From the NCBI RefSeq assembly GCF_030295405.1, contig NZ_AP027080.1:3022001-3086000 (forward strand): a stretch of DNA of 64,000 nt, given 5' to 3'. The notes under the pieces were generated by a model. That model was not told the DNA's origin and did no database searches. It worked only from the letters and a program-made list of their open reading frames with translations. The position numbers and the translations under genes are program-made. How positions within the stretch are numbered: position 1 is the first letter of the stretch; each line of letters opens with the position of its first letter. This stretch comes from Mesoterricola silvestris (lineage in GTDB: Bacteria > Acidobacteriota > Holophagae > Holophagales > Holophagaceae). Positions 8,086 through 34,713 of this stretch are shown piece by piece.

Positions 8086-8997
8086 TCACATCCCCTCGAA
8101 AAGGCCGCGCTGGGCCGGAACCAGGGGGTGGCGCGGGGGCACGGCCCGGGTTTCCTGGGCTTCCCGCCGCCGGGCCCGGGGGAAGGCCTCCCGCAGGACC
8201 CCCGCCACCTGTTCCTGGTACTCGGCATCCAGGATGAACAGCCAGTCGTTGCGGGCCAGGACATCGTAGAAGGGATCGTCCTTGAGCAGGCGCAGGCCGC
8301 CCACCCAGGCCCCGGAGGCCCCGCTGTCCTTGGCCCGCCGGGCGAAGGCCACGGGGTTGTGCACCGGCATGAGCGGCGCCACGGCCAGGTTCACCTCGAT
8401 GCCGGCCTGGGCCAGGCGCTCCATGGCCGCCCACCGGGAGGGCACGGGCGGGGACCGGGGTTCCACCACCTGGCGCACGGTGTCGTCGTCCGTGGGGATG
8501 GAGAGCCCCACCCTCACCCGGGGCCCGAAGGCCCGGAGCAGCTCCAGGTCCTGGAGCACCAGGGGGGAGCGGGTGTGCACCAGCACCCGGGTGGTGGGGC
8601 ACTTCAGGAGCACCTCCAGGCAGGCCCGGGTGAGGCGGAATTCCCGCTCCAGGGGCTGGTAGGGGTCCGTGGCGGAGGCCAGGAAGACCGTCTGCCCATG
8701 CAACCGGTGGCGCTGGTTCCAGAGGAGCTCGGGGGCGTTGAGCTTGGGCACGGCCCAGGTGCCCCACAGGGACCGGTCCACGGGCTTCCCCTTTTCGCCG
8801 GGGAGGGCCTGGGGGTAGTCCCGCACGTAGCAGTAGCGGCAGCCGTGCTCGCAGCCCCGGTAGGGGCTCAGGGCGAACCCGAAGCCGTAGCGGTCGTCCT
8901 TCTGGGGCCGCAGGATGCTCCGGGCGTCCTCGGGCTCCACCTGGAGGTCGTGGAACAGCTCCCTGGGATGCGCGAGGCTTAGGAGTGGCGGCGTCAT
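8086..8997 (-). CDS. Radical SAM protein of the Rv2578c/PA0069 (spore-photolyase-like) type
   Basis: A 303-residue radical SAM protein. The iron-sulfur site is C49-x3-C53-x2-C56 in the segment YRGCEHGCRYCYVRDY, inside a sequence (YGFGFALSPYRGCEHGC) characteristic of the PA0069/Rv2578c group. Later segments such as FLASATDPYQPLE and VLVHTRSPLVLQDLELL are also group-typical. No substrate is established for this group; resemblance to spore photoproduct lyase has been noted, but repair activity should not be assumed. It lies upstream of dnaX on the same strand. The start is immediately after a T-rich stretch, and no strong ribosome site was seen. Confidence 0.85.
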   Translation of the reverse strand: MTPPLLSLAHPRELFHDLQVEPEDARSILRPQKDDRYGFGFALSPYRGCEHGCRYCYVRDYPQALPGEKGKPVDRSLWGTWAVPKLNAPELLWNQRHRLHGQTVFLASATDPYQPLEREFRLTRACLEVLLKCPTTRVLVHTRSPLVLQDLELLRAFGPRVRVGLSIPTDDDTVRQVVEPRSPPVPSRWAAMERLAQAGIEVNLAVAPLMPVHNPVAFARRAKDSGASGAWVGGLRLLKDDPFYDVLARNDWLFILDAEYQEQVAGVLREAFPRARRREAQETRAVPPRHPLVPAQRGLFEGM

Positions 8998-24859: not shown

Positions 24860-24935
24860 GGGGCTGTAGCTCAGCTGGGAGAGCGCCTCGTTCGCAATGA
24901 GGAGGTCGACAGTTCGATCCTGTTCAGCTCCACCA
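24860..24935 (+). tRNA. tRNA-Ala (anticodon CGC)
   Basis: A 76-base cloverleaf with CCA encoded. Acceptor GGGGCTG pairs with CAGCTCC and contains the G3:U70 wobble pair that identifies alanine tRNAs. The D arm is GCTC-AGCTGGGA-GAGC. The anticodon loop TTCGCAA gives CGC, reading GCG codons, and the T arm carries TTCGATC. The gene has its own promoter and terminator and stands alone. Its 3' side is the start of a region of mixed composition with a toxin-antitoxin pair. Confidence 0.97.
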
Positions 24936-25015: not shown

Positions 25016-26074
25016 TCACTCCCGGGACGGGGCCTTCCTCCATTCGATCTGGAACTCGCTGGGGCCTTGCCCATGCTTCCAGAATCCGGGCCCGGATCCA
25101 TTGGCCGGTGTGGGTCCAGCGAAGGTTGCACCGATCACGAAATGGCTCGCGTCCAGGATGCGATACAGGTAGGGCTCGTGGGTCTCCGGATCCTCCATGG
25201 CGCGGATGTAGGTTAAAGGATCTCCGTTGCAGTCGGCCAGGGTTGCCGGCAGCTTCCCGTGGGTTTCGGCATAGCTGGAAATGCCCTCCTGGATGTTTTG
25301 CAGATCCTGGACCCTGCGCGCATCCAGGTTCTGGAGCCTCACCCGGCTGGGGCTGCCAACGTTCCAGAAAGCCACCGCCAGAACCAGCACCACGCAGCCT
25401 GCCAGGAGGAGCTGGCCTGGTGTACGAACACCCATGTCCGCACTGGGGTCAAGTTCATCCTTACGAAGCTGGAGGAAGTAGTGGCCGAGTGCAGCCCCAG
25501 CCAATACAGCGACCACAAGGGTTTTGAGGATGAACCGCGAGGTCATTTCTCCTTCCAGGAACGTGTGGGCCAGCACGATGAGGTCGGTGACCAGGGCGAC
25601 GGATGCGAGTAGCAATGTCAAATACGTGGACCATCGCCGGATCGGAGAGATCCGCTGCCCAGGATTGCGCCGGGCCGCCGCAGTGACCAGGTGGTTCAGG
25701 ACCATGAATAGGGGAAAGGCCACAAGCACGGATGAGATCTGCGTCCTTAGGCTTCTGATGTGGTGGCTGGCCATTTCATACTCGCCTGGTTGCGGCATCC
25801 AGAGGTTCAGAAGATCGAAAAGGATCGATCCGAGCGAGAATGACCAGGTCACCAGGGACGAAAAGAGAAGGAGGAACTGAAAGGCCTCCTTGGGCGAGCT
25901 GGAAACGGCCTTTCGTGGAACGGGAAGCCCGAGGCCGGCGTCGACATATCCATGGAGCGCACTTTTAATCTCTTCCGTGCTCCAGCCGGCTTCCTCAAGA
26001 GCCAGGGCAATGGCCTCCCGCGGGTGGCCCGAGGAAAGGGCTTTATATACAAAGGATTGGAGTTCCGCGTTCAT
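25016..26074 (-). CDS. DUF5671 multi-spanning membrane protein
   Basis: A 352-residue protein. Residues 1-50 form a small helical domain (LQSFVYKALSSGHPREAIALALEEAGWSTEEI) of the kind found ahead of DUF5671. About five membrane segments follow (near residues 67-90, 115-130, 150-170, 185-205 and 225-243, by hydrophobicity). The C-terminal ~110 residues are soluble (LQNLDARRVQDLQNIQEGISSYAETHGKLPATL), resembling a pilin-like or secretion-associated tail. The function of DUF5671 proteins is unknown. Codon use is less GC-biased than in the housekeeping genes. A hairpin and a direct repeat lie just upstream. Confidence 0.75.
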   Translation of the reverse strand: MNAELQSFVYKALSSGHPREAIALALEEAGWSTEEIKSALHGYVDAGLGLPVPRKAVSSSPKEAFQFLLLFSSLVTWSFSLGSILFDLLNLWMPQPGEYEMASHHIRSLRTQISSVLVAFPLFMVLNHLVTAAARRNPGQRISPIRRWSTYLTLLLASVALVTDLIVLAHTFLEGEMTSRFILKTLVVAVLAGAALGHYFLQLRKDELDPSADMGVRTPGQLLLAGCVVLVLAVAFWNVGSPSRVRLQNLDARRVQDLQNIQEGISSYAETHGKLPATLADCNGDPLTYIRAMEDPETHEPYLYRILDASHFVIGATFAGPTPANGSGPGFWKHGQGPSEFQIEWRKAPSRE

Positions 26075-26100
26075 GGGGCGCCGTCCTGTTAGGGGGAAGT

Positions 26101-26140
26101 GGCATTATCGCATTATCGGGGGCACTCATTGGGTGTCCCC
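26101..26140. other. Direct repeat and hairpin upstream of the DUF5671 gene
   Basis: GCATTATC is repeated head to tail at about 26102-26117. A hairpin follows with stem GGGGCAC (26119-26125) and GTGTCCC (26133-26139), including one G-T pair. Both lie about 30-65 bases upstream of the start at 26074. The rest of 26075-26349 holds nothing I can identify. Confidence 0.35.
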
Positions 26141-26349
26141 ATTCCCAGCGAACCTCCAACGGGGATAAACAGGGTCCAGGGAAAAGCAGGATAAAGAACG
26201 TCATGTCAAAGCTGGAGCCAGATCACCGCGTTCAACTTAGCGATTCATGACCTAGGTTTTGCCGGCACGCAGGAATGGAGCGCCGAGGCATTCCCACGAG
26301 TCTCCGAATCCACCAAAAAGGAACAGCAACATTTGGCCTGTCTTTCCAT

Positions 26350-27606
26350 TTAGCCTTCCCGTAGGGACCAGGCGATCCCTTTTCCCCATTCCCTGAGCAT
26401 CGCCCCTCCGATCTCGCTGAATTCCGGATGTTGCTGGATATAGGATTGGACCTCCTTCGAAGTGTCGCGCATGGCTTGTTCGATCTTCTGGAACACGTGC
26501 CGGGCTCGCGCCGGGGTGCAACCGGCCCGGGTCTCGCCCAGGCGAAGGAGTTCCTTGGCCGTCGGCCATCGCGTGGACCCGTTCAGGGTGAGCGCCATGG
26601 TGTCCTTTGGCAGGTATACGGATGTCGTCACCAGGTCGTACACCGGGGCTAGCCGCACCTCCCCCAGCGGGTCATCGTAGATCACCCCGAAATTCTTCAA
26701 GTGGGCGTCACCGTTGCGGAGCGCGCAATTGAGGACGATCAGGACGAAGAGTCTTTCCAGGTCCGCATGAATATGGGTCGCGGTTGAAAACTGCTGGAAG
26801 CGTTTCAGGATTGACGTCTCGTAGGAGCCCCGATATTTCTCCTCGGTTCGACGGGCGTTGAGCACACAGAGATCCTCAAAGCCCCGGTAGCTGCCATCCA
26901 TGCGAAGGTCGAAACGATCGATGACCAGGGCCGCACCATCCTCAGCCAGCCTGAAGGCAGGCACCTCGAGCCCGCACTGAAGAGCCACCCTCAGGCAGAA
27001 GAATTCATTGGCTGCCAGCTGGGGATACTCGCCCGGTTCCCATAGCTTGACGATATGGGTCGCCCCACGAAAGCTCTGGGAAAGGCGCTGGCCTGCGCCC
27101 TCCCTGGGCGTGAAAGCCTGCTCATCGCGGAAGAGAAGTTTGGGCTGAACGCCGCTGATGCCTGAATAGGCGGCAAACTTTTCCAACAGGTACTGGAACA
27201 GGCCCCCATCGCGCCGGCGCTGGAGGATCTCGTCCACGGATTGGAACGGGACTTCGTCCGCAAGGTCGGCCATGTCCCCCGTGAAGCGGATCCGGCCGAT
27301 CTGGGAACGCCCCACGACCGCAAGCAGGTCGAACTCGTCGAACTTCCCGGTCGCCTTGGCGAAGGCGAGGCGAAGCCGTTCTCGCAGAGCGCCCTCGGGC
27401 AGGTTCATTTCGAAGATGGGGAGCAGGCCGAAGGGAGCGGTCCACGACTCCAACCGCACCTCCATGCTCAGGGAGACGGCCCTCACCGCCGCCACGCCCG
27501 GAAGGTAGACAAAGGTGCTCCCACGCTCGCCGTGCCGGTCAAGCCGTCCAGCTTCAGTGGCGTCCGTCCAAATCTTGATCAAGGCGGTTCTCCTCCAGCA
27601 GTGCAT
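26350..27606 (-). CDS. hipA: HipA-family serine/threonine kinase toxin
   Basis: HipA toxins phosphorylate a tRNA synthetase (GltX in E. coli) and slow growth until antitoxin HipB neutralises them. The 418-residue protein has an N-terminal HipA_N part, the glycine-rich loop GISGVQPKLLF, AANEFFCLRVA, VIDRFD, the catalytic segment NGDAHLKNFGVIYDD and the metal Asp in LAPVYDLVTT. The start is uncertain: ATG 27606 overlaps the end of hipB by 53 bases, and a TTG at 27582 (MIKIWTDATEAG) is a plausible alternative. Either way it is coupled to hipB. Lower GC than the surrounding core suggests acquisition. Confidence 0.9.
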   Translation of the reverse strand: MHCWRRTALIKIWTDATEAGRLDRHGERGSTFVYLPGVAAVRAVSLSMEVRLESWTAPFGLLPIFEMNLPEGALRERLRLAFAKATGKFDEFDLLAVVGRSQIGRIRFTGDMADLADEVPFQSVDEILQRRRDGGLFQYLLEKFAAYSGISGVQPKLLFRDEQAFTPREGAGQRLSQSFRGATHIVKLWEPGEYPQLAANEFFCLRVALQCGLEVPAFRLAEDGAALVIDRFDLRMDGSYRGFEDLCVLNARRTEEKYRGSYETSILKRFQQFSTATHIHADLERLFVLIVLNCALRNGDAHLKNFGVIYDDPLGEVRLAPVYDLVTTSVYLPKDTMALTLNGSTRWPTAKELLRLGETRAGCTPARARHVFQKIEQAMRDTSKEVQSYIQQHPEFSEIGGAMLREWGKGIAWSLREG

Positions 27607-27832
27607 CCAGGGTAGGTCTGCTTGAACCGAGTTCCTGGAGCTTCAGGTGCAGGCCCAGAACCGCCAGGATGCGGGCTACTTTCACGAAGCCCAGTTCACC
27701 CAGCCGGGCGTTTTCCAGGGCATCCAGCGTGGAACGGCCAACACCCGCTTTACCTGCGAGCATCGTCTGGCTGAGGCCCAAGGCCTTGCGTCGTTTGGCA
27801 ATCGCTTCGCCGAGATCGGGGAGGGTGACCAT
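27554..27832 (-). CDS. hipB: HipB-type antitoxin, helix-turn-helix repressor
   Basis: A 92-residue XRE-type helix-turn-helix protein (LGEAIAKRRKALGLSQTMLAGKAGVGRSTLDALE) with a short C-terminal tail (LDALLEENRLDQDLDG), preceding and overlapping hipA. It should bind HipA and repress the operon. The frame allows a GTG at 27838, but the -10 box ends at 27839, so the transcript would begin near the ATG at 27832. I therefore chose 27832, which implies a leaderless message. The candidate operator flanks the -35 box. Confidence 0.9.
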   Translation of the reverse strand: MVTLPDLGEAIAKRRKALGLSQTMLAGKAGVGRSTLDALENARLGELGFVKVARILAVLGLHLKLQELGSSRPTLDALLEENRLDQDLDGRH

Positions 27833-27838
27833 ATGCAC

Positions 27839-27879
27839 AATATACTAGGCATCTATTCTAATTTCAAGTATTTTGCCTA
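27839..27879 (-). promoter_or_regulatory. hipBA promoter with inverted-repeat operator
   Basis: On the minus strand, TTGAAA (27862-27867) and TATATT (27839-27844) are exactly 17 bases apart. An inverted repeat, TAGGCA at 27846-27851 and TGCCTA at 27874-27879, has one half in the spacer and the other just upstream of the -35. HipB bound here would block RNA polymerase. Confidence 0.65.
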
Positions 27880-28201
27880 ACATACAAGTCATCCAAAAGA
27901 AGGGTCATGAGATTGGGCCCCACCTTCCACCTATGAAGGTCCCCGCACCACGGCTTGGTGCCTTGAATGGAGACGGCCCGCCGCCCCACTCCTTCCCCAT
28001 CCCCAGCCATGGCCGCCTGGCTGGCCCATCCCTGGGACGAACCGTCCCGGTCGTGGGATGCCCTTCCGGGAAGGAATTTTACAAACATTGATATTACATT
28101 AATTATACAGTGGAATGCGTTTTGCTCATTTGTCGTCCGCCTGCCTGTAGCGGACGTCCAAGGCGCCTGCGCTGCCGGATCCACCTCCTTCCGGAGTTTC
28201 C
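27880..28201. other. Intergenic region between hipB and the ADOP permease gene
   Basis: No gene is supported in these 322 bases. Their right half is AT-rich, with a possible plus-strand promoter (TTTACA at 28078-28083, AATTAT at 28101-28106, spacer 17) that could serve the permease. A minus-strand open frame here (27864-28223) has no ribosome site, no recognisable motifs and abrupt composition changes, so I left it out. Confidence 0.4.
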
Positions 28202-30601
28202 ATGCCGTCCTTCGCTTGCCCAACGTTCCTGGCCGACCTTTCGCGGAGTTTTTCCCGCCGACCGGTCTCTTCGCTGGTGGCGGTGCTGATGCTCGCCATG
28301 GGCATCGGCGCCAGCACCGCGGTCTTTTCGCTCATGGCGCCGGTGCTCCTGGGATCCTCGGGGCTCACGGGGAAGGTGGTGGAGGTGAGCCGGCGCACCG
28401 AAGGGAATCAGGGGGAGGTCCGGTTCTCCTTCGAGAACGGCCTGTCCCTGGAGGAAATGCAAGTTCAACAGGCGGGCAATCCCGCCATCGCGGCCCTGGC
28501 CCAGGGCAGCCAGGAGCGCTTCGTGGTGCGCGGCGAAGGGGCGGAGGCGCGGTATCTGCGGGCTTCCTTCATAACCTCCGCCTATTTCCAGGTCATGGGC
28601 GTGGCACCCTGGCTGGGACGGGGCTTCACCCCGCAGGAGGACAGGCTGGCGGAACCCCAGGCGATCCTCAGTTTCGGATTGTGGCACAGCCTTTTTGGCG
28701 GAGATCGCAAGGCCCTGGGCCGGGTGCTGCAGGTGAACGGCCATTCCTGCAGGGTGGCCGGGGTTCTGCCCCGGGGCTTCTCGGGACACCTCGTGGGTCA
28801 GCGCATGGACCTCTGGCTGCCCTTGGGGGCGCGCGCCGCCCTGGCCGAAGCGCCCGAGGCCGGGACCCTGACCTCCAGCGACCCCACCCTCGCCCGGCTC
28901 CGCCCGGGTTTCACTCTGGCCCAGGCGGAGCAGGCCTTCCGGACCCTGGGGGCGGGCTTCCAGGGCCCTGCTCCGCTTCCGGGGACCCGGGTCGGGCCCC
29001 TTACCCTGGCGCCCTTCGCCGCCAACCGGGACCTTGTGTTGGAGGAGCGTCTGCCCGCGCCCTGGTTGTTGCTGGCGGCGGCGGGGAGCCTCCTGCTCCT
29101 GGCCTGTGCCAATGTGGCCAACCTGCAGCTGGCCCAGCTGGAGGCGCGGCGGCAGGAATTCGCCATCCGCCTTTCCTTGGGGGCTCGCCGGGGCGCCGTC
29201 ATCCGGGCGGTCCTCCAGGAGCACCTGGCCCTCAGCGCCCTGGCCGGCGGGCTGGGGCTGGTGCTGGCCTGGCCCTTCCTGCGGGGCCTGGATGCCATCC
29301 GGGACGTGAAGATCTATGAGGTGCCCACGCCGGTTTCCCTCAGCCCCGCGGCCCTGCTGTTCGCCCTGGCCCTGGTCCTGGCCACGGCCCTGGCGGTGGG
29401 CATCCTGCCCGCGTACCGGGCCTCCCGGGCGGACCTGGCCCAGGTCCTCAAGGATCTGGCGAGCACCCACGTCCGTGGCACCCGGCTCCAGGACGGCCTG
29501 GTGATCGTGCAGGTGGCCTTGGCCCTCGCCCTGATCGCGGGGGGCGCCCTGGTGGCCCGGGGGCTGGCCCGGGCGCGCAGCACGGCCCTGGGTTTCCGGG
29601 AGGCGGGCGTGGCCGGCCTGCGCCTGGAATTCCCCCAGGCCTGGACGGAGCAGCGCCGGGCCGATGCCCGGCAGGCCCTGGAGGCCCGCATCGCGGCCCT
29701 GCCCGGCGTGAAGGCGGTGAGCTGGGCCGAGCGCCTTCCCATGGAGGAGGGCATCCTCACGATCACCTCCCTGCCGGGCAAGGCATACGCCCAGGTGCAG
29801 GGGATCGGCCCCGGCTACTTCGCCACCCTCGGCCTCACCCTGCTCCAAGGCCGGGACTTCGCCCGCGCCGACCAGCCCGAGGGCGGCCGGATCATCAACC
29901 AGACCTTGGCCCACCAGCTTTGGCCCGGTCAGGACCCCCTGGGCCGGGACCTGAAGGGGCACCCGGTGATCGGGGTGGTGATGGACCATGGCCTTTCCAC
30001 CGAGAAGAGCGTGCATGTCCCGGCGATCTTCAGCCCCCTCCGCCCCTCGGGCGGCCGCAATCACTGCGCCTGTCTGCTCTTTCGCACCGAGGGCGAACCC
30101 GAGGCGCTGTTCGCCTCTGCCCAGCAGGTGCTCAGGGCCGTCGACCCCGATCTACCGCTGCTCAAGCTCGCCACCCTTTCCTCCCACCTGGACGGCCTGC
30201 ACCACCATTTGCGGGTGGCGTCCTGGCTCCTGGGCTTCTGCGGCCTGATGGCGCTGCTCATGGCGGCCATGGGGGTGCAGGCCCTCCTGGTGTTCCGGAT
30301 CGAGCGCCAGACGCGGGAGATCGGCTTGCGCATGGCCCTGGGCGCGCCCCGGGGACGCATCCTGCGGGAGGTCATCCAGCGCGGCATGCGCAGCGTCGGG
30401 GTGGGCCTGGCCCTGGGGGCGCTGGGCGCCTACGCCCTGGGCCGCATCTGCCACCACGCCTTCAAGGGCGTGGAGCCCCTGGAAGCCCCGAGCCTCCTGG
30501 AGGCGCTGGGCACCCTGCTGGGGGTTTCCCTCCTGGCCTGCCTCCTGCCCGCCCTGAGGGCCGCGGCCCTGGACCCCGCCCGGGCCATGCGCCAGGATTG
30601 A
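28202..30601 (+). CDS. ADOP-type (acidobacterial duplicated orphan permease) MacB/FtsX-family permease
   Basis: A 799-residue permease with two FtsX domains and no ATPase partner nearby, the hallmark of the ADOP family that is strongly expanded in Acidobacteriota. TM1 is near residues 20-45. A MacB-like periplasmic domain follows (VMGVAPWLGRGFTPQED, FGLWHSLFGGD). The first FtsX block is at about 283-405 with CANVANLQLAQLEARRQEFAIRLSLGA, a middle TM is at about 430-455, then comes a second periplasmic domain, and the last three TMs are at about 672-790 with TREIGLRMALGAPRG. Substrates of ADOP proteins are unknown. Its stop is followed at once by a relic of another gene's 3' end. Confidence 0.9.
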   Translation: MPSFACPTFLADLSRSFSRRPVSSLVAVLMLAMGIGASTAVFSLMAPVLLGSSGLTGKVVEVSRRTEGNQGEVRFSFENGLSLEEMQVQQAGNPAIAALAQGSQERFVVRGEGAEARYLRASFITSAYFQVMGVAPWLGRGFTPQEDRLAEPQAILSFGLWHSLFGGDRKALGRVLQVNGHSCRVAGVLPRGFSGHLVGQRMDLWLPLGARAALAEAPEAGTLTSSDPTLARLRPGFTLAQAEQAFRTLGAGFQGPAPLPGTRVGPLTLAPFAANRDLVLEERLPAPWLLLAAAGSLLLLACANVANLQLAQLEARRQEFAIRLSLGARRGAVIRAVLQEHLALSALAGGLGLVLAWPFLRGLDAIRDVKIYEVPTPVSLSPAALLFALALVLATALAVGILPAYRASRADLAQVLKDLASTHVRGTRLQDGLVIVQVALALALIAGGALVARGLARARSTALGFREAGVAGLRLEFPQAWTEQRRADARQALEARIAALPGVKAVSWAERLPMEEGILTITSLPGKAYAQVQGIGPGYFATLGLTLLQGRDFARADQPEGGRIINQTLAHQLWPGQDPLGRDLKGHPVIGVVMDHGLSTEKSVHVPAIFSPLRPSGGRNHCACLLFRTEGEPEALFASAQQVLRAVDPDLPLLKLATLSSHLDGLHHHLRVASWLLGFCGLMALLMAAMGVQALLVFRIERQTREIGLRMALGAPRGRILREVIQRGMRSVGVGLALGALGAYALGRICHHAFKGVEPLEAPSLLEALGTLLGVSLLACLLPALRAAALDPARAMRQD

Positions 30602-30714: not shown

Positions 30715-31701
30715 TCAAAAGGCCGCTTCCAGGACCTGCAAGATGCCACCTGCATAGGGTTCCCCGGTCACCTGATCATGGAGGGCCTTGGCCTCCTCCG
30801 TGGCGTTGGCCACCAGGAAGCCATGCCTCACGACTTTGAGCATGGGGATGTCATTGCCGCTTTCGCCGAAGGCGTACGCGTCCTCGGCCGCCAAGCCGTT
30901 TTGGGACAGGAGGTACTGGACCACCCGCTCTTTTCCCGAAGGGACGGGAATGAAGTCGATGTCGTAGCTTCCCTCTGGATCGCCAGCCTTTGGATTGCAT
31001 CTGGAGATGTTCAACCCCAGCGCATTAGCGGCGGCCAACTCGCGGATTAGGCTTAGGGCTTTCTGGTCGCCCTCCGGGTCGCGGCCTTCCAGGAAATAAC
31101 TCTTCTTGTACGCCGCAACCCGAAGCTCCGGCTGGGGCTTCAGATCCACCCCCTTGAGCCGCAGGGCTTCGACCATGCGTCTTACGGCTTCTTTGCTGAA
31201 CCCACTGGAGGCCATGCGGTCCCGCCAAGTCCAGTCCGGACGGCAGGTAACGTTCTGGTCGAAATAGGTGATCTCCGTGCCCAGATCACTGGCGATGAAA
31301 TGGGGAAGGAGCGTCATTTGTGATCCCCCCATCTGCTGAAGCACCTCCTCAAGGCTGCTGCCGGTGACCAGGCCAAACAGAATGCCTGTGGAAGGACAAG
31401 TGGCGGTCAGATAGTCCTCCAGACGGACCTTGGCTTTCCAATTTTGTGCGGATCGATCGTGGGCAAAGTAGGTTTCGTCGAAATCGCAAAACACTATCCA
31501 CCGAGGTTTGGGCATACCGGGCAGCAGGCGGAACCGGGCGTCGATCCGGGCCTCGCACAGGGTTGCTGAGGAGCTTGAAAGCATTTCCACCTTCCCTTTC
31601 CCTATGGGCACAAGGATGCCTGACAACAGTAGTGAGATGCCAACCACACAGATTCCGGTTTTCCAGCGCAAACCGAGCCGGAAAGAGGAAGAGTCGCTCA
31701 T
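30715..31701 (-). CDS. ntdB: Kanosamine-6-phosphate phosphatase (NtdB-like, HAD-IIB)
   Basis: A HAD phosphatase matching Bacillus subtilis NtdB, which dephosphorylates kanosamine 6-phosphate. Shared stretches include IVFCDFDETYF (nucleophile Asp), LVTGSS, HFIASDLGTEITYF, NISRCNPKAGDPE, SYDIDFIPV and FGESGNDIPML. ATG 31701 overlaps the ntdC stop by 4 bases, giving 328 residues. The first ~39 include a hydrophobic, likely membrane-spanning segment (GICVVGISLLLSGILVPIG) absent from the B. subtilis protein. The alternative ATG 31584 is preceded by a good ribosome site (GGAAGGTGG) and gives 289 residues, close to NtdB's length. Last gene of the operon; GC is clearly lower than in the flanks. Confidence 0.9.
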   Translation of the reverse strand: MSDSSSFRLGLRWKTGICVVGISLLLSGILVPIGKGKVEMLSSSSATLCEARIDARFRLLPGMPKPRWIVFCDFDETYFAHDRSAQNWKAKVRLEDYLTATCPSTGILFGLVTGSSLEEVLQQMGGSQMTLLPHFIASDLGTEITYFDQNVTCRPDWTWRDRMASSGFSKEAVRRMVEALRLKGVDLKPQPELRVAAYKKSYFLEGRDPEGDQKALSLIRELAAANALGLNISRCNPKAGDPEGSYDIDFIPVPSGKERVVQYLLSQNGLAAEDAYAFGESGNDIPMLKVVRHGFLVANATEEAKALHDQVTGEPYAGGILQVLEAAF

Positions 31702-32762
31702 TCCAGGCGAGAGAGGAAGACGCGGTGGGCGGCACCGGTTTTCTGCAGGATTCCCTCGAGGATTCGCTGGGCCTGGAGTCCATCCTTGAATGAGGCCAAG
31801 GTGCGCAGCTCACCGTTCGGACTGCCCTGAATCAAGTCCAGCCACTGCCAAGCCTGTCCCGTGAAGGAATCGGCCCATCCGAAGACCTCCTCCGGTGGAT
31901 CGAACAGATCCTGGACGGTCGGAAGCTCTCGCCATTCCCAGTCCGCCTGTTCCTTAACCTGGTAGAGGCTCTTGTGCATGGAGGCGTAACGCAATTCCAA
32001 GTTTTCTCCCACCACCTCCACATGCAATCCAAGGTCGTTAGGCTCAGCCGTTTTGGAGGCTGCCAAGGAGACGAAGCAACCTTTTGCCGATCGCAGGCAT
32101 GTGAAGGCGTCGTCATCCACGCGCACTGGCTGGTTCTCCCGGCTCGCCACGTGGGTGGTTAACTTGGCACTGATGCTGTCAGGGTCCAACGCGTCCTCAA
32201 AACAGAAGTGGAACAGGTCAATGAGGTGGACGCCCAAGTCGCCCATCGCTCCGCTGGTGCCTAACGTCTGCTCGCCGTCTCGCCAGGTAAAAGTCTTCTT
32301 GGTGAAGGCGCTACGTTTCTTCAAAGCCATTCGCACCGCCAACACCCGGCCGAATGCCCCGTTCGACAAACAGTGCTTGATCATCTTAGCGATGGGCAAA
32401 TATCGGTAATTGAAGCCTACGGCAGCGACCTGGCGGGTGCCCGCGAGAGAATCTACTAGGCGGAAGGCATCCTCCAGGCGGGTGACCAGGGGTTTTTCGC
32501 ACAAGACATGGCAGCCCTGCCCAATGGCTTGGGTCACATGGGTCACATGGAAGGCATTGGGGGACGCGACGATCACCGCCTCGACATCCTCCAACAAACG
32601 CTCCGCAGTGACATAGGGTTGGCAATGATGCCTGTCGGCAAATGCTACCGCTTGGGACGGGTTGCAATCATACACTCCGCAGATGCCGGGGCCATGGACT
32701 CTCGCCAGGGCCGTTGCGTGCATGGCTGCGATCCTCCCTCCACCAATAATTCCAAGTTTCAT
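31698..32762 (-). CDS. ntdC: Glucose-6-phosphate 3-dehydrogenase (NtdC-like)
   Basis: A 354-residue Gfo/Idh/MocA oxidoreductase. NtdC oxidises glucose 6-phosphate at C3 with NAD, the first step of kanosamine synthesis. The Rossmann motif is GIIGGGRIAAMHATAL, followed by CEKPLVTRLEDA with the catalytic Lys of EKP. Stretches shared specifically with B. subtilis NtdC are GFNYRYL, KKTFTWRD, TSGAMGDLGVHLIDL, the VRVDDDAF segment, VEVVGENLELRY and the DPPEEVFGWADSF segment. It overlaps ntdA and ntdB by 4 bases each (ATGA). The HLID His and the nearby Asp fit the active-site pattern of this oxidoreductase family. Confidence 0.92.
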   Translation of the reverse strand: MKLGIIGGGRIAAMHATALARVHGPGICGVYDCNPSQAVAFADRHHCQPYVTAERLLEDVEAVIVASPNAFHVTHVTQAIGQGCHVLCEKPLVTRLEDAFRLVDSLAGTRQVAAVGFNYRYLPIAKMIKHCLSNGAFGRVLAVRMALKKRSAFTKKTFTWRDGEQTLGTSGAMGDLGVHLIDLFHFCFEDALDPDSISAKLTTHVASRENQPVRVDDDAFTCLRSAKGCFVSLAASKTAEPNDLGLHVEVVGENLELRYASMHKSLYQVKEQADWEWRELPTVQDLFDPPEEVFGWADSFTGQAWQWLDLIQGSPNGELRTLASFKDGLQAQRILEGILQKTGAAHRVFLSRLE

Positions 32763-34165
32763 GATGACCTAGCTTTCTCTCGGTTAGGCGCCGGTTTGGC
32801 AAGCACCATCTCCATGGCCTCCACCACCCGGTCTTGCTCGCCCAGAGTCATGCCCGGGTAGAGGGGAAGATTCATCAGCCTCTGGTGAAGTTTTTCGGTT
32901 ACGGGACAGCGGGTGTCGGAATAATACGTTTTTTGGAGTGGAGTGTCCTGCTGGTGTGTCAGGCGCGGGTAGTAGATCTCCGTCTCCACGTGATGCCTTT
33001 CGAGCAGGTCCCGGCGTACCTGATCCCGGTCCCGGTCGAGGATTTGGACGGGGAAAAGGTGCCACACGTGCCTGTCTACCATGGATGGCGCCAGGATCTT
33101 TCCAGAGCGAACCAAGTCCTTCAGGAGTATTAAGTATCGCCAAGCCAGGAAGAGCCTTCGAAAATTGTTCAACGCCAGATATGGAAGTTTCGCCCACCCG
33201 ATGGCGGCCTGGAGATCATCGATCCGAGCATTGAACCCGAAGCCTTCCGTCTTGATGTTCTTCTTGCCCAGTTCGAAGCCGTGATAGCTGATCATCCGAC
33301 ACCTGGTCTCGAGGGCCGGATCCTGGGTGACAATGGCCCTGGCCTTGCCACAGAAGCCTAGGTTTTTGAATGGGTTGAAGCTCAGGACGGCTGCGTCCGA
33401 ATGGCGACCCATTCCGGTGGCGCCCAGGCTCTGGCAAGCGTCTTCTAGCAACCGCACCCCAAGAGAATCGGAAACTCTTCTTATTTTCGGCATGTCCGCC
33501 AGTTGGCCGTACAGATGCACCGGCAGGATGAGGCGAGTCCGGGCCGTAACGACCCGCTCCAGCTTGGAAGCATCTAGCAGGAAGGTGGCTTCCTCCACAT
33601 CGCCAAGCACAGGCACCGCACCCACCGCTAGAATCGCGTTCTCGGTGGCTGCGAAACTGTTGCCCGGGATGATCACCTCGTCACCCGAGCCAATACCTAG
33701 GGCATGCAGGACAACGATCAGGGCATCGGTGCCGCTGCTGCATAGGATGGTAGCTCGGCAACCCAGAAATTCGCATAAGGCCTCTTCCAGCCGTGGAGCG
33801 TGCGGACCGCTGGTGAACTGGCCAGAGTCGGCCACCAGGGCGAAGGCCTCTTGACAGGCCTTGGTCTCTTCGGCGCCCATTAAGCGATGCATGGGAAGGA
33901 AGGGCACCTGGTCGGTGGGTGGTGTCTGGGCGAAAAGCACCTGGGCCAAGTCCATGTCCCGCCGGAGTCTTCCTCCAGAAAGCAGCGTCTCCGCAAGCTT
34001 GATCATTGCCCGGTTTGGGTCGATGGAGACCTCTCCTTCCGTCCCCTCTAGGAGCATTTCCAGAAGCCTGACATTGTCGACGCTGTCACCACGGAGGTGG
34101 AATTTGGTTTCGCCCTCCCTGATAGTCTTGGCTCCGGGCTGTTGAAGGTTCCGACAATTGATCAT
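32759..34165 (-). CDS. ntdA: 3-oxo-glucose-6-phosphate:glutamate aminotransferase (NtdA-like)
   Basis: A 468-residue DegT/DnrJ-fold PLP aminotransferase. NtdA transfers an amino group from glutamate to 3-oxo-glucose 6-phosphate to give kanosamine 6-phosphate. It follows B. subtilis NtdA closely: VPFLPMHRL, SGQFTSGPHAPRLE, GNSFAATENAILA, ILPVHLYGQLADM, LSFNPFKNLGFCGKA (PLP Lys in NPFK), YHGFE, FGFNARIDDLQAAIG, LALNNFRRLFLAWRY, HVWHLFPV and LPLYPGMTLGEQDRVVEAM. The N-terminal ~85 residues (KFHLRGDSVDNVRLLEMLLEG) match the extra N-terminal part of NtdA rather than ordinary DegT enzymes. GAGGTAG precedes ATG 34165. It is the first gene of the operon ntdA-ntdC-ntdB. Confidence 0.93.
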   Translation of the reverse strand: MINCRNLQQPGAKTIREGETKFHLRGDSVDNVRLLEMLLEGTEGEVSIDPNRAMIKLAETLLSGGRLRRDMDLAQVLFAQTPPTDQVPFLPMHRLMGAEETKACQEAFALVADSGQFTSGPHAPRLEEALCEFLGCRATILCSSGTDALIVVLHALGIGSGDEVIIPGNSFAATENAILAVGAVPVLGDVEEATFLLDASKLERVVTARTRLILPVHLYGQLADMPKIRRVSDSLGVRLLEDACQSLGATGMGRHSDAAVLSFNPFKNLGFCGKARAIVTQDPALETRCRMISYHGFELGKKNIKTEGFGFNARIDDLQAAIGWAKLPYLALNNFRRLFLAWRYLILLKDLVRSGKILAPSMVDRHVWHLFPVQILDRDRDQVRRDLLERHHVETEIYYPRLTHQQDTPLQKTYYSDTRCPVTEKLHQRLMNLPLYPGMTLGEQDRVVEAMEMVLAKPAPNREKARSS

Positions 34166-34713
34166 GCGACTACCTCACTCAGCTGGTGAGTAATGCAATA
34201 AATAAGTTCCAAAAAAATGTTATTAAATCGTTATTAGTGTATGTATTAATTGAGTTTAATACTACATTGGAGCGCTGTGGTGATAAATTTATGGTGCTTA
34301 TAATTATTCTAGATTTATAAGCGGTTTGGAACCCTGTGAGGTCCAGCGAAGCAGGCGAAAAATCGTGAAGCCATAGCGACCAATGGCAAAAGGAGCCACT
34401 CAGAATGCCGCAAACATTTTGAATGGGAAGCCTCCCCATCCTGCACTCCTCAAAACCTGCTTCGAAGGAGGGCAAGCTAGGTCAAGCAGGAAGGAGGCTC
34501 AATGGAATGGAAGCACGGTTCCGCTAGCCTGCATTCCCTGGCAATACGGTTTCCGGGTGGCTTATTCATTACGCACTTGGGGATCATCAAGCAGGCCTTC
34601 CGGAGATTGGGATTTGCCGTGGCAGGGCCTGCGGGTCCAAAATCGTGGCCCGGCCCCGGGGAGGGTGCCGGAAACAGTCCCCCGTTCATCACCCCCTGGA
34701 AAGGATCCGTGCC
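34166..34713. other. AT-rich intergenic region upstream of ntdA
   Basis: 548 bases with no supported gene. 34180-34330 is strikingly AT-rich and holds the likely ntdA promoter (not assignable with confidence), a GTTATT-AAATC-GTTATT direct repeat near 34219, and the inverted repeat listed next. The part from about 34380 to 34700 returns to ordinary composition, and I see nothing in it. A 98-codon minus-strand frame at 34179-34475 lacks any support. Confidence 0.6.
34296..34322. promoter_or_regulatory. Inverted repeat, possible operator of the ntd operon
   Basis: GCTTATAA (34296-34303) and TTATAAGC (34315-34322) are perfect 8-base complements separated by 11 bases, about 130 bases upstream of ntdA. 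The B. subtilis ntd operon is controlled by the LacI-type regulator NtdR; no such gene is in this window, so the binder is unknown. Confidence 0.45.

Follow-up and report, generated by a model that had tools for sequence, protein, structure and literature searches.

A predicted kanosamine operon with the gene order A-C-B and a probable horizontal origin in the acidobacterium Mesoterricola silvestris

As seen in the window, the whole stretch of 64,000 nucleotides analysed here, three adjacent minus-strand genes of Mesoterricola silvestris are very probably a kanosamine operon that is intact and was acquired horizontally. It likely makes kanosamine from glucose 6-phosphate, with the reactions assigned by orthology to the characterised NtdABC and KabABC enzymes. 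Both the pathway with its enzymes and its occurrence outside Bacillus were known already; the new elements are the host, the A-C-B gene order and a notable residue change in the phosphatase.

Layout of the operon and gene starts

All three open reading frames are intact in the window and follow each other on the minus strand in the order A-C-B. The first gene, A (32759..34165, 468 aa), is the homologue of ntdA/kabA. Gene C (31698..32762, 354 aa), the homologue of ntdC/kabC, has a Gfo/Idh/MocA fold and is a predicted NAD-dependent glucose-6-phosphate 3-dehydrogenase. Gene B, the homologue of ntdB/kabB and a predicted HAD-IIB kanosamine-6-phosphate phosphatase, occupies 30715..31701 (328 aa) as the longest open reading frame from the ATG at 31701, and 30715..31584 from its likely start, the ATG at 31584.

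Both junctions had been described in the initial annotation as 4-base ATGA overlaps. For A and C the overlap is a true one, TCATCATGAAA. In the DNA, ATGA also links C to the longest form of B, but it is probably not where B starts. No Shine-Dalgarno motif was seen in the start context of ATG 31701, whereas the Shine-Dalgarno-like run AGGGAAAGGGAAGG stands ahead of the internal ATG at 31584, from which the product would have the length of an NtdB. In the model of the long form, residues 1-47 have a pLDDT below 50 while the remainder is mostly above 90, and homology to other NtdB proteins begins only at about residue 55. The C/B overlap is therefore probably not functional; translation of B most likely begins at ATG 31584, leaving about 114 bp between C and B. 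On the minus strand, 31585..31701 is thus a probable intergenic spacer, and the N-terminal extension that it would encode from ATG 31701 is doubtful. A membrane-anchored NtdB with a hydrophobic N-terminus was considered and rejected in favour of the downstream start on the evidence of start contexts and pLDDT.

Upstream of A, an AT-rich region (34166..34360, minus strand) is judged from GC composition to be the probable promoter and leader, and the GC content falls to 0.36 in 34201-34400. No consensus sigma-70 site was found upstream of the operon. The trio would presumably be expressed as a single unit.

The order A-C-B, given already in the initial annotation, is confirmed by the positions of the reading frames and is shared by none of the 40 other full-trio operons. 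In 38 of these the genes are contiguous as A-B-C, and two are interrupted. In Geomicrobium halophilum (locus L044), ntdB and ntdC are separated by an IS110-family transposase gene (8164-8988), and in Crocosphaera ntdC lies upstream with a MATE gene in between.

Identity of the three enzymes and the predicted pathway

In phmmer searches of the PDB, the best match of A is KabA of Bacillus cereus (7kz3, E = 4.8e-118), with NtdA of B. subtilis (4k2i) at 6e-115 and the next family at only 3e-58. The identity of A is 44% to NtdA and 44% to KabA. A tree including out-group proteins from the same genome, from relatives and from other sources places A within the NtdA clade (SH-aLRT 100). It can be seen that A retains 63 of 66 clade-invariant residues, including the PLP-lysine region SFNPFKN, and 20 of 21 Ntd-specific columns; the out-group proteins shown retain 35-41 of the 66. 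No relative of A was found in viral contigs. Additionally, an aminotransferase of the NtdA clade, 48% identical over the matched part, was observed in a Desulfarculaceae MAG (locus L047, 5824-7179), next to a transporter-like reading frame and what looks like a HAD gene, but without NtdB or NtdC, and possibly represents a different 3-amino sugar route.

For B, the NtdB structure 3gyg is both the best PDB match in phmmer (E = 1.7e-70; next, 2.8e-6) and the first-ranked Foldseek match of the predicted structure. B falls within the NtdB clade with an SH-aLRT of 99, and with 100/100 support in a more careful tree, few out-groups being included. It retains 33 of 36 clade-invariant residues, compared with 17-18 in the out-group proteins shown, and 17 of 19 Ntd-specific columns.

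The PDB matches of C include only general Gfo/Idh proteins and no NtdC structure; therefore, other ntd operons, collected by their NtdA, supplied the C genes for comparison. Identities over most of the length are 33-39% to the closer of these genes (Bacillus, Paenibacillus, Streptomyces) and 28-31% to a gammaproteobacterial group. The value for B. spizizenii NtdC is 37.5%; an approximate B. subtilis NtdC sequence that served as an additional query is 96% identical to this B. spizizenii gene, and no result depends on it alone. The C genes of plasmid ntd operons score about 149 bits, as against at most 118 bits for other Gfo/Idh proteins among the matches listed. C lies within the NtdC clade (SH-aLRT 94) as a long branch in a tree with three out-group proteins. 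All 37 clade-invariant residues are retained (21-26 in the out-group proteins shown), as are all 11 Ntd-specific columns.

The match of the trio to NtdA, NtdC and NtdB, proposed in the initial annotation, is thus borne out by the PDB matches of A and B, by the C genes of ntd operons and by the clade residues. The opposing placement that it had named was not recovered in the trees, where A, B and C lie in the Ntd clades, apart from the ordinary DegT, HAD-IIB and Gfo/Idh families. That 40 other operons hold these three genes together was also counted in favour of a kanosamine operon.

The three-step route from glucose 6-phosphate to kanosamine has been established in B. subtilis and B. cereus (PMC8788734; PMC6522883). 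By analogy, NtdC would use NAD+ to oxidise glucose 6-phosphate at C3, yielding an unstable 3-oxo sugar. The PLP enzyme NtdA would transaminate this sugar with glutamate as the amino donor, and from the resulting kanosamine 6-phosphate NtdB would remove the phosphate to give kanosamine (3-amino-3-deoxy-glucose). The rifamycin-type route (RifL/RifK/RifM/RifN) likewise leads to kanosamine through a dehydrogenase, a PLP aminotransferase and a phosphatase, but it proceeds from UDP-glucose through UDP-sugar substrates and employs another aminotransferase family (PMC8788734). Such a UDP-kanosamine route with a RifK-family aminotransferase is ruled out by the PDB scores of A, 85 bits for AHBA synthase (1b9h) against 398 bits for KabA. 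The trio of the window belongs to the glucose-6-phosphate route.

Gene neighbourhood, the phosphatase and use of the product

Compared with ntdABC of B. subtilis, all three enzymes are 37-44% identical, belong to the same clades and have the same predicted pathway. However, the B. subtilis operon has the A-B-C order, is regulated by the LacI-type NtdR and carries an MFS gene, whereas the operon of the window is A-C-B, lacks both neighbours and resides in a high-GC Gram-negative host. The kabABC(D) and kabR genes of B. cereus UW85, the source of the best PDB match of A, are part of the zwittermicin cluster, together with a fourth gene and a LacI regulator (PMC9586298), unlike the operon described here. 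The plasmid operons of E. coli, Klebsiella and Rahnella contain the same trio (A 41-42%, B 36-37% and C 31% identical), but in the A-B-C order, with a SemiSWEET gene and on conjugative plasmids. In E. coli (NZ_CP129253.1) and Rahnella (NZ_CP093329.1) plasmids, ntdA-ntdB-ntdC is followed by the SemiSWEET gene, and NtdB has matches in about 58 plasmid records of Escherichia. Plasmid-borne ntdABC of E. coli has been noted before (PMC5320562). Any implied confinement of the pathway to Bacillus does not hold, since it also occurs in Streptomyces, Vibrio and Crocosphaera.

Most of the operons inspected carry a transporter. An MFS gene adjoins C in those of Bacillus, Paenibacillus, Virgibacillus, Geomicrobium and some Streptomyces, and a LacI-type regulator is present in several; Pfam confirmation of MFS and LacI covers the six operons tested. 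A few operons, such as those of Rodentibacter and Elizabethkingia, show neither a transporter nor a LacI neighbour. Beside the operon of the window, neither a transporter nor a LacI/NtdR-type regulator was found, in agreement with the initial annotation, and the host genome has no SemiSWEET, the only transporter type looked for genome-wide. The adjoining genes are a convergent MacB/FtsX-type permease gene of host-like GC downstream and a divergent AHSA1-domain gene upstream.

The initial annotation had taken these absences to mean that the product may be a building block, which overstates what missing neighbours can tell. That the trio makes a 3-amino-3-deoxyglucose unit for a glycan or another product, without release, is considered unlikely. 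The lack of an adjacent transporter or NtdR-type regulator, unlike most operons inspected, favours it, but the operon adjoins neither a biosynthetic cluster nor genes for a glycosyltransferase or for sugar activation, free kanosamine must be re-phosphorylated before activation, and export may rely on transporters encoded elsewhere in the genome. The main reading is that kanosamine would serve as an antimicrobial sugar, whether secreted or kept inside the cell.

The residue change lies in B, where motif IV reads GESGND (Asp280Glu) while the other alignment rows, out-groups included, have GDSGND; the nucleophile motif DFDET is kept. In HAD enzymes, the altered position is one that binds the metal ion. 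If the phosphatase step were weak or lost in this way, the operon would yield mainly kanosamine 6-phosphate for intracellular use or for dephosphorylation by another enzyme, and the lack of an adjacent exporter would fit. We regard this as rather improbable. The change from Asp to Glu is conservative, GESGND also occurs in stand-alone cyanobacterial NtdB and 33 of the 36 invariant residues are retained, so NtdB looks to be under selection. These stand-alone proteins, 44% identical to B, are found in genomes of the phylum of the Crocosphaera MAG (L129, L130, L131) with no ntdA or ntdC nearby. In the tree they are not the closest relatives of B; therefore, Asp280Glu may have arisen twice. Stand-alone NtdB-like HAD genes, 28% identical, were also observed outside ntd operons on a Staphylococcus epidermidis plasmid (L119) and in the phage SA 1306 Kay record OR844994.1.

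Taken together, the deep branching of the operon, its A-C-B order, the altered metal site of its phosphatase and the lack of an exporter or regulator could suggest an internal role of kanosamine or kanosamine 6-phosphate, for example in the control of amino-sugar metabolism or as a cell-envelope unit, instead of a secreted antibiotic. This is offered as a speculation of low probability.

Origin and significance of the operon

Horizontal acquisition, suggested in the initial annotation from the low GC content, is well supported by composition and phyletic pattern and is the simplest reading. While the window has a GC content of about 0.70, that of the operon is 0.58-0.59. In most neighbours GC3 lies at 0.86-0.98; A, B and C have values of 0.69-0.71, and their codon fit to local usage is among the lowest in the window. 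A search for NtdB in 396 genomes sampled across the phylum detected it in 1, the genome to which the window belongs. Among 40 relatives, five of them of the same genus, no match at the level of NtdA was found; by score these are general DegT proteins, the best at 222 bits. In the Desulfobacterota-type phylum of genome G415, no NtdB was found in a search that had no positive control there.

In the trees, each of A, B and C is a deep branch nested within no donor group. This position would also suit an old inheritance of the host lineage that was lost by its relatives, with no transfer; we hold this to be very unlikely, as GC3 and codon use are foreign and the presence of NtdB in 1 of 396 genomes would require very many losses. 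It is extremely improbable that the trio are ordinary members of the DegT, Gfo/Idh and HAD families that act on another sugar and came together by chance. The general families score high in both Pfam and NCBIfam, and none of the NCBIfam equivalogs attains its cut-off, but A, B and C independently join the Ntd clades and retain clade-specific residues, and on these grounds an ordinary operon of this kind was rejected.

Regarding the mode of acquisition, no insertion junction, flanking direct repeat or empty site in congeners was found, apart from short, chance-like repeat matches. Relatives of the flanking MacB and AHSA1 genes do occur in congeners, but they sit in other surroundings and are not collinear, which excluded them as an empty site. 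The only RNA family match in the window is the tRNA, and insertion at tRNA-Ala (24860-24935) was rejected as no copy of its 3' end lies elsewhere in the window. A second stretch of low GC3 (0.63-0.77) begins directly after this tRNA, at 25016-28223, and encodes a DUF5671 protein and a HipA kinase, together with the HipB-like HTH partner of the kinase; it also contains a small reading frame. It is parted from the ntd operon by the host-like MacB gene.

Titles and abstracts on kanosamine and Acidobacteri- describe no kanosamine operon, in line with the initial annotation, which knew of no description of the pathway in this lineage. The understanding of the pathway itself is unchanged by the locus. 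As a very probable kanosamine operon, it would extend the glucose-6-phosphate route to a phylum in which it is absent from the 395 other genomes sampled, and it would illustrate the movement of the cassette between distant bacteria. It also offers enzymology a deep-branching trio with a natural Asp-to-Glu change in motif IV of NtdB.
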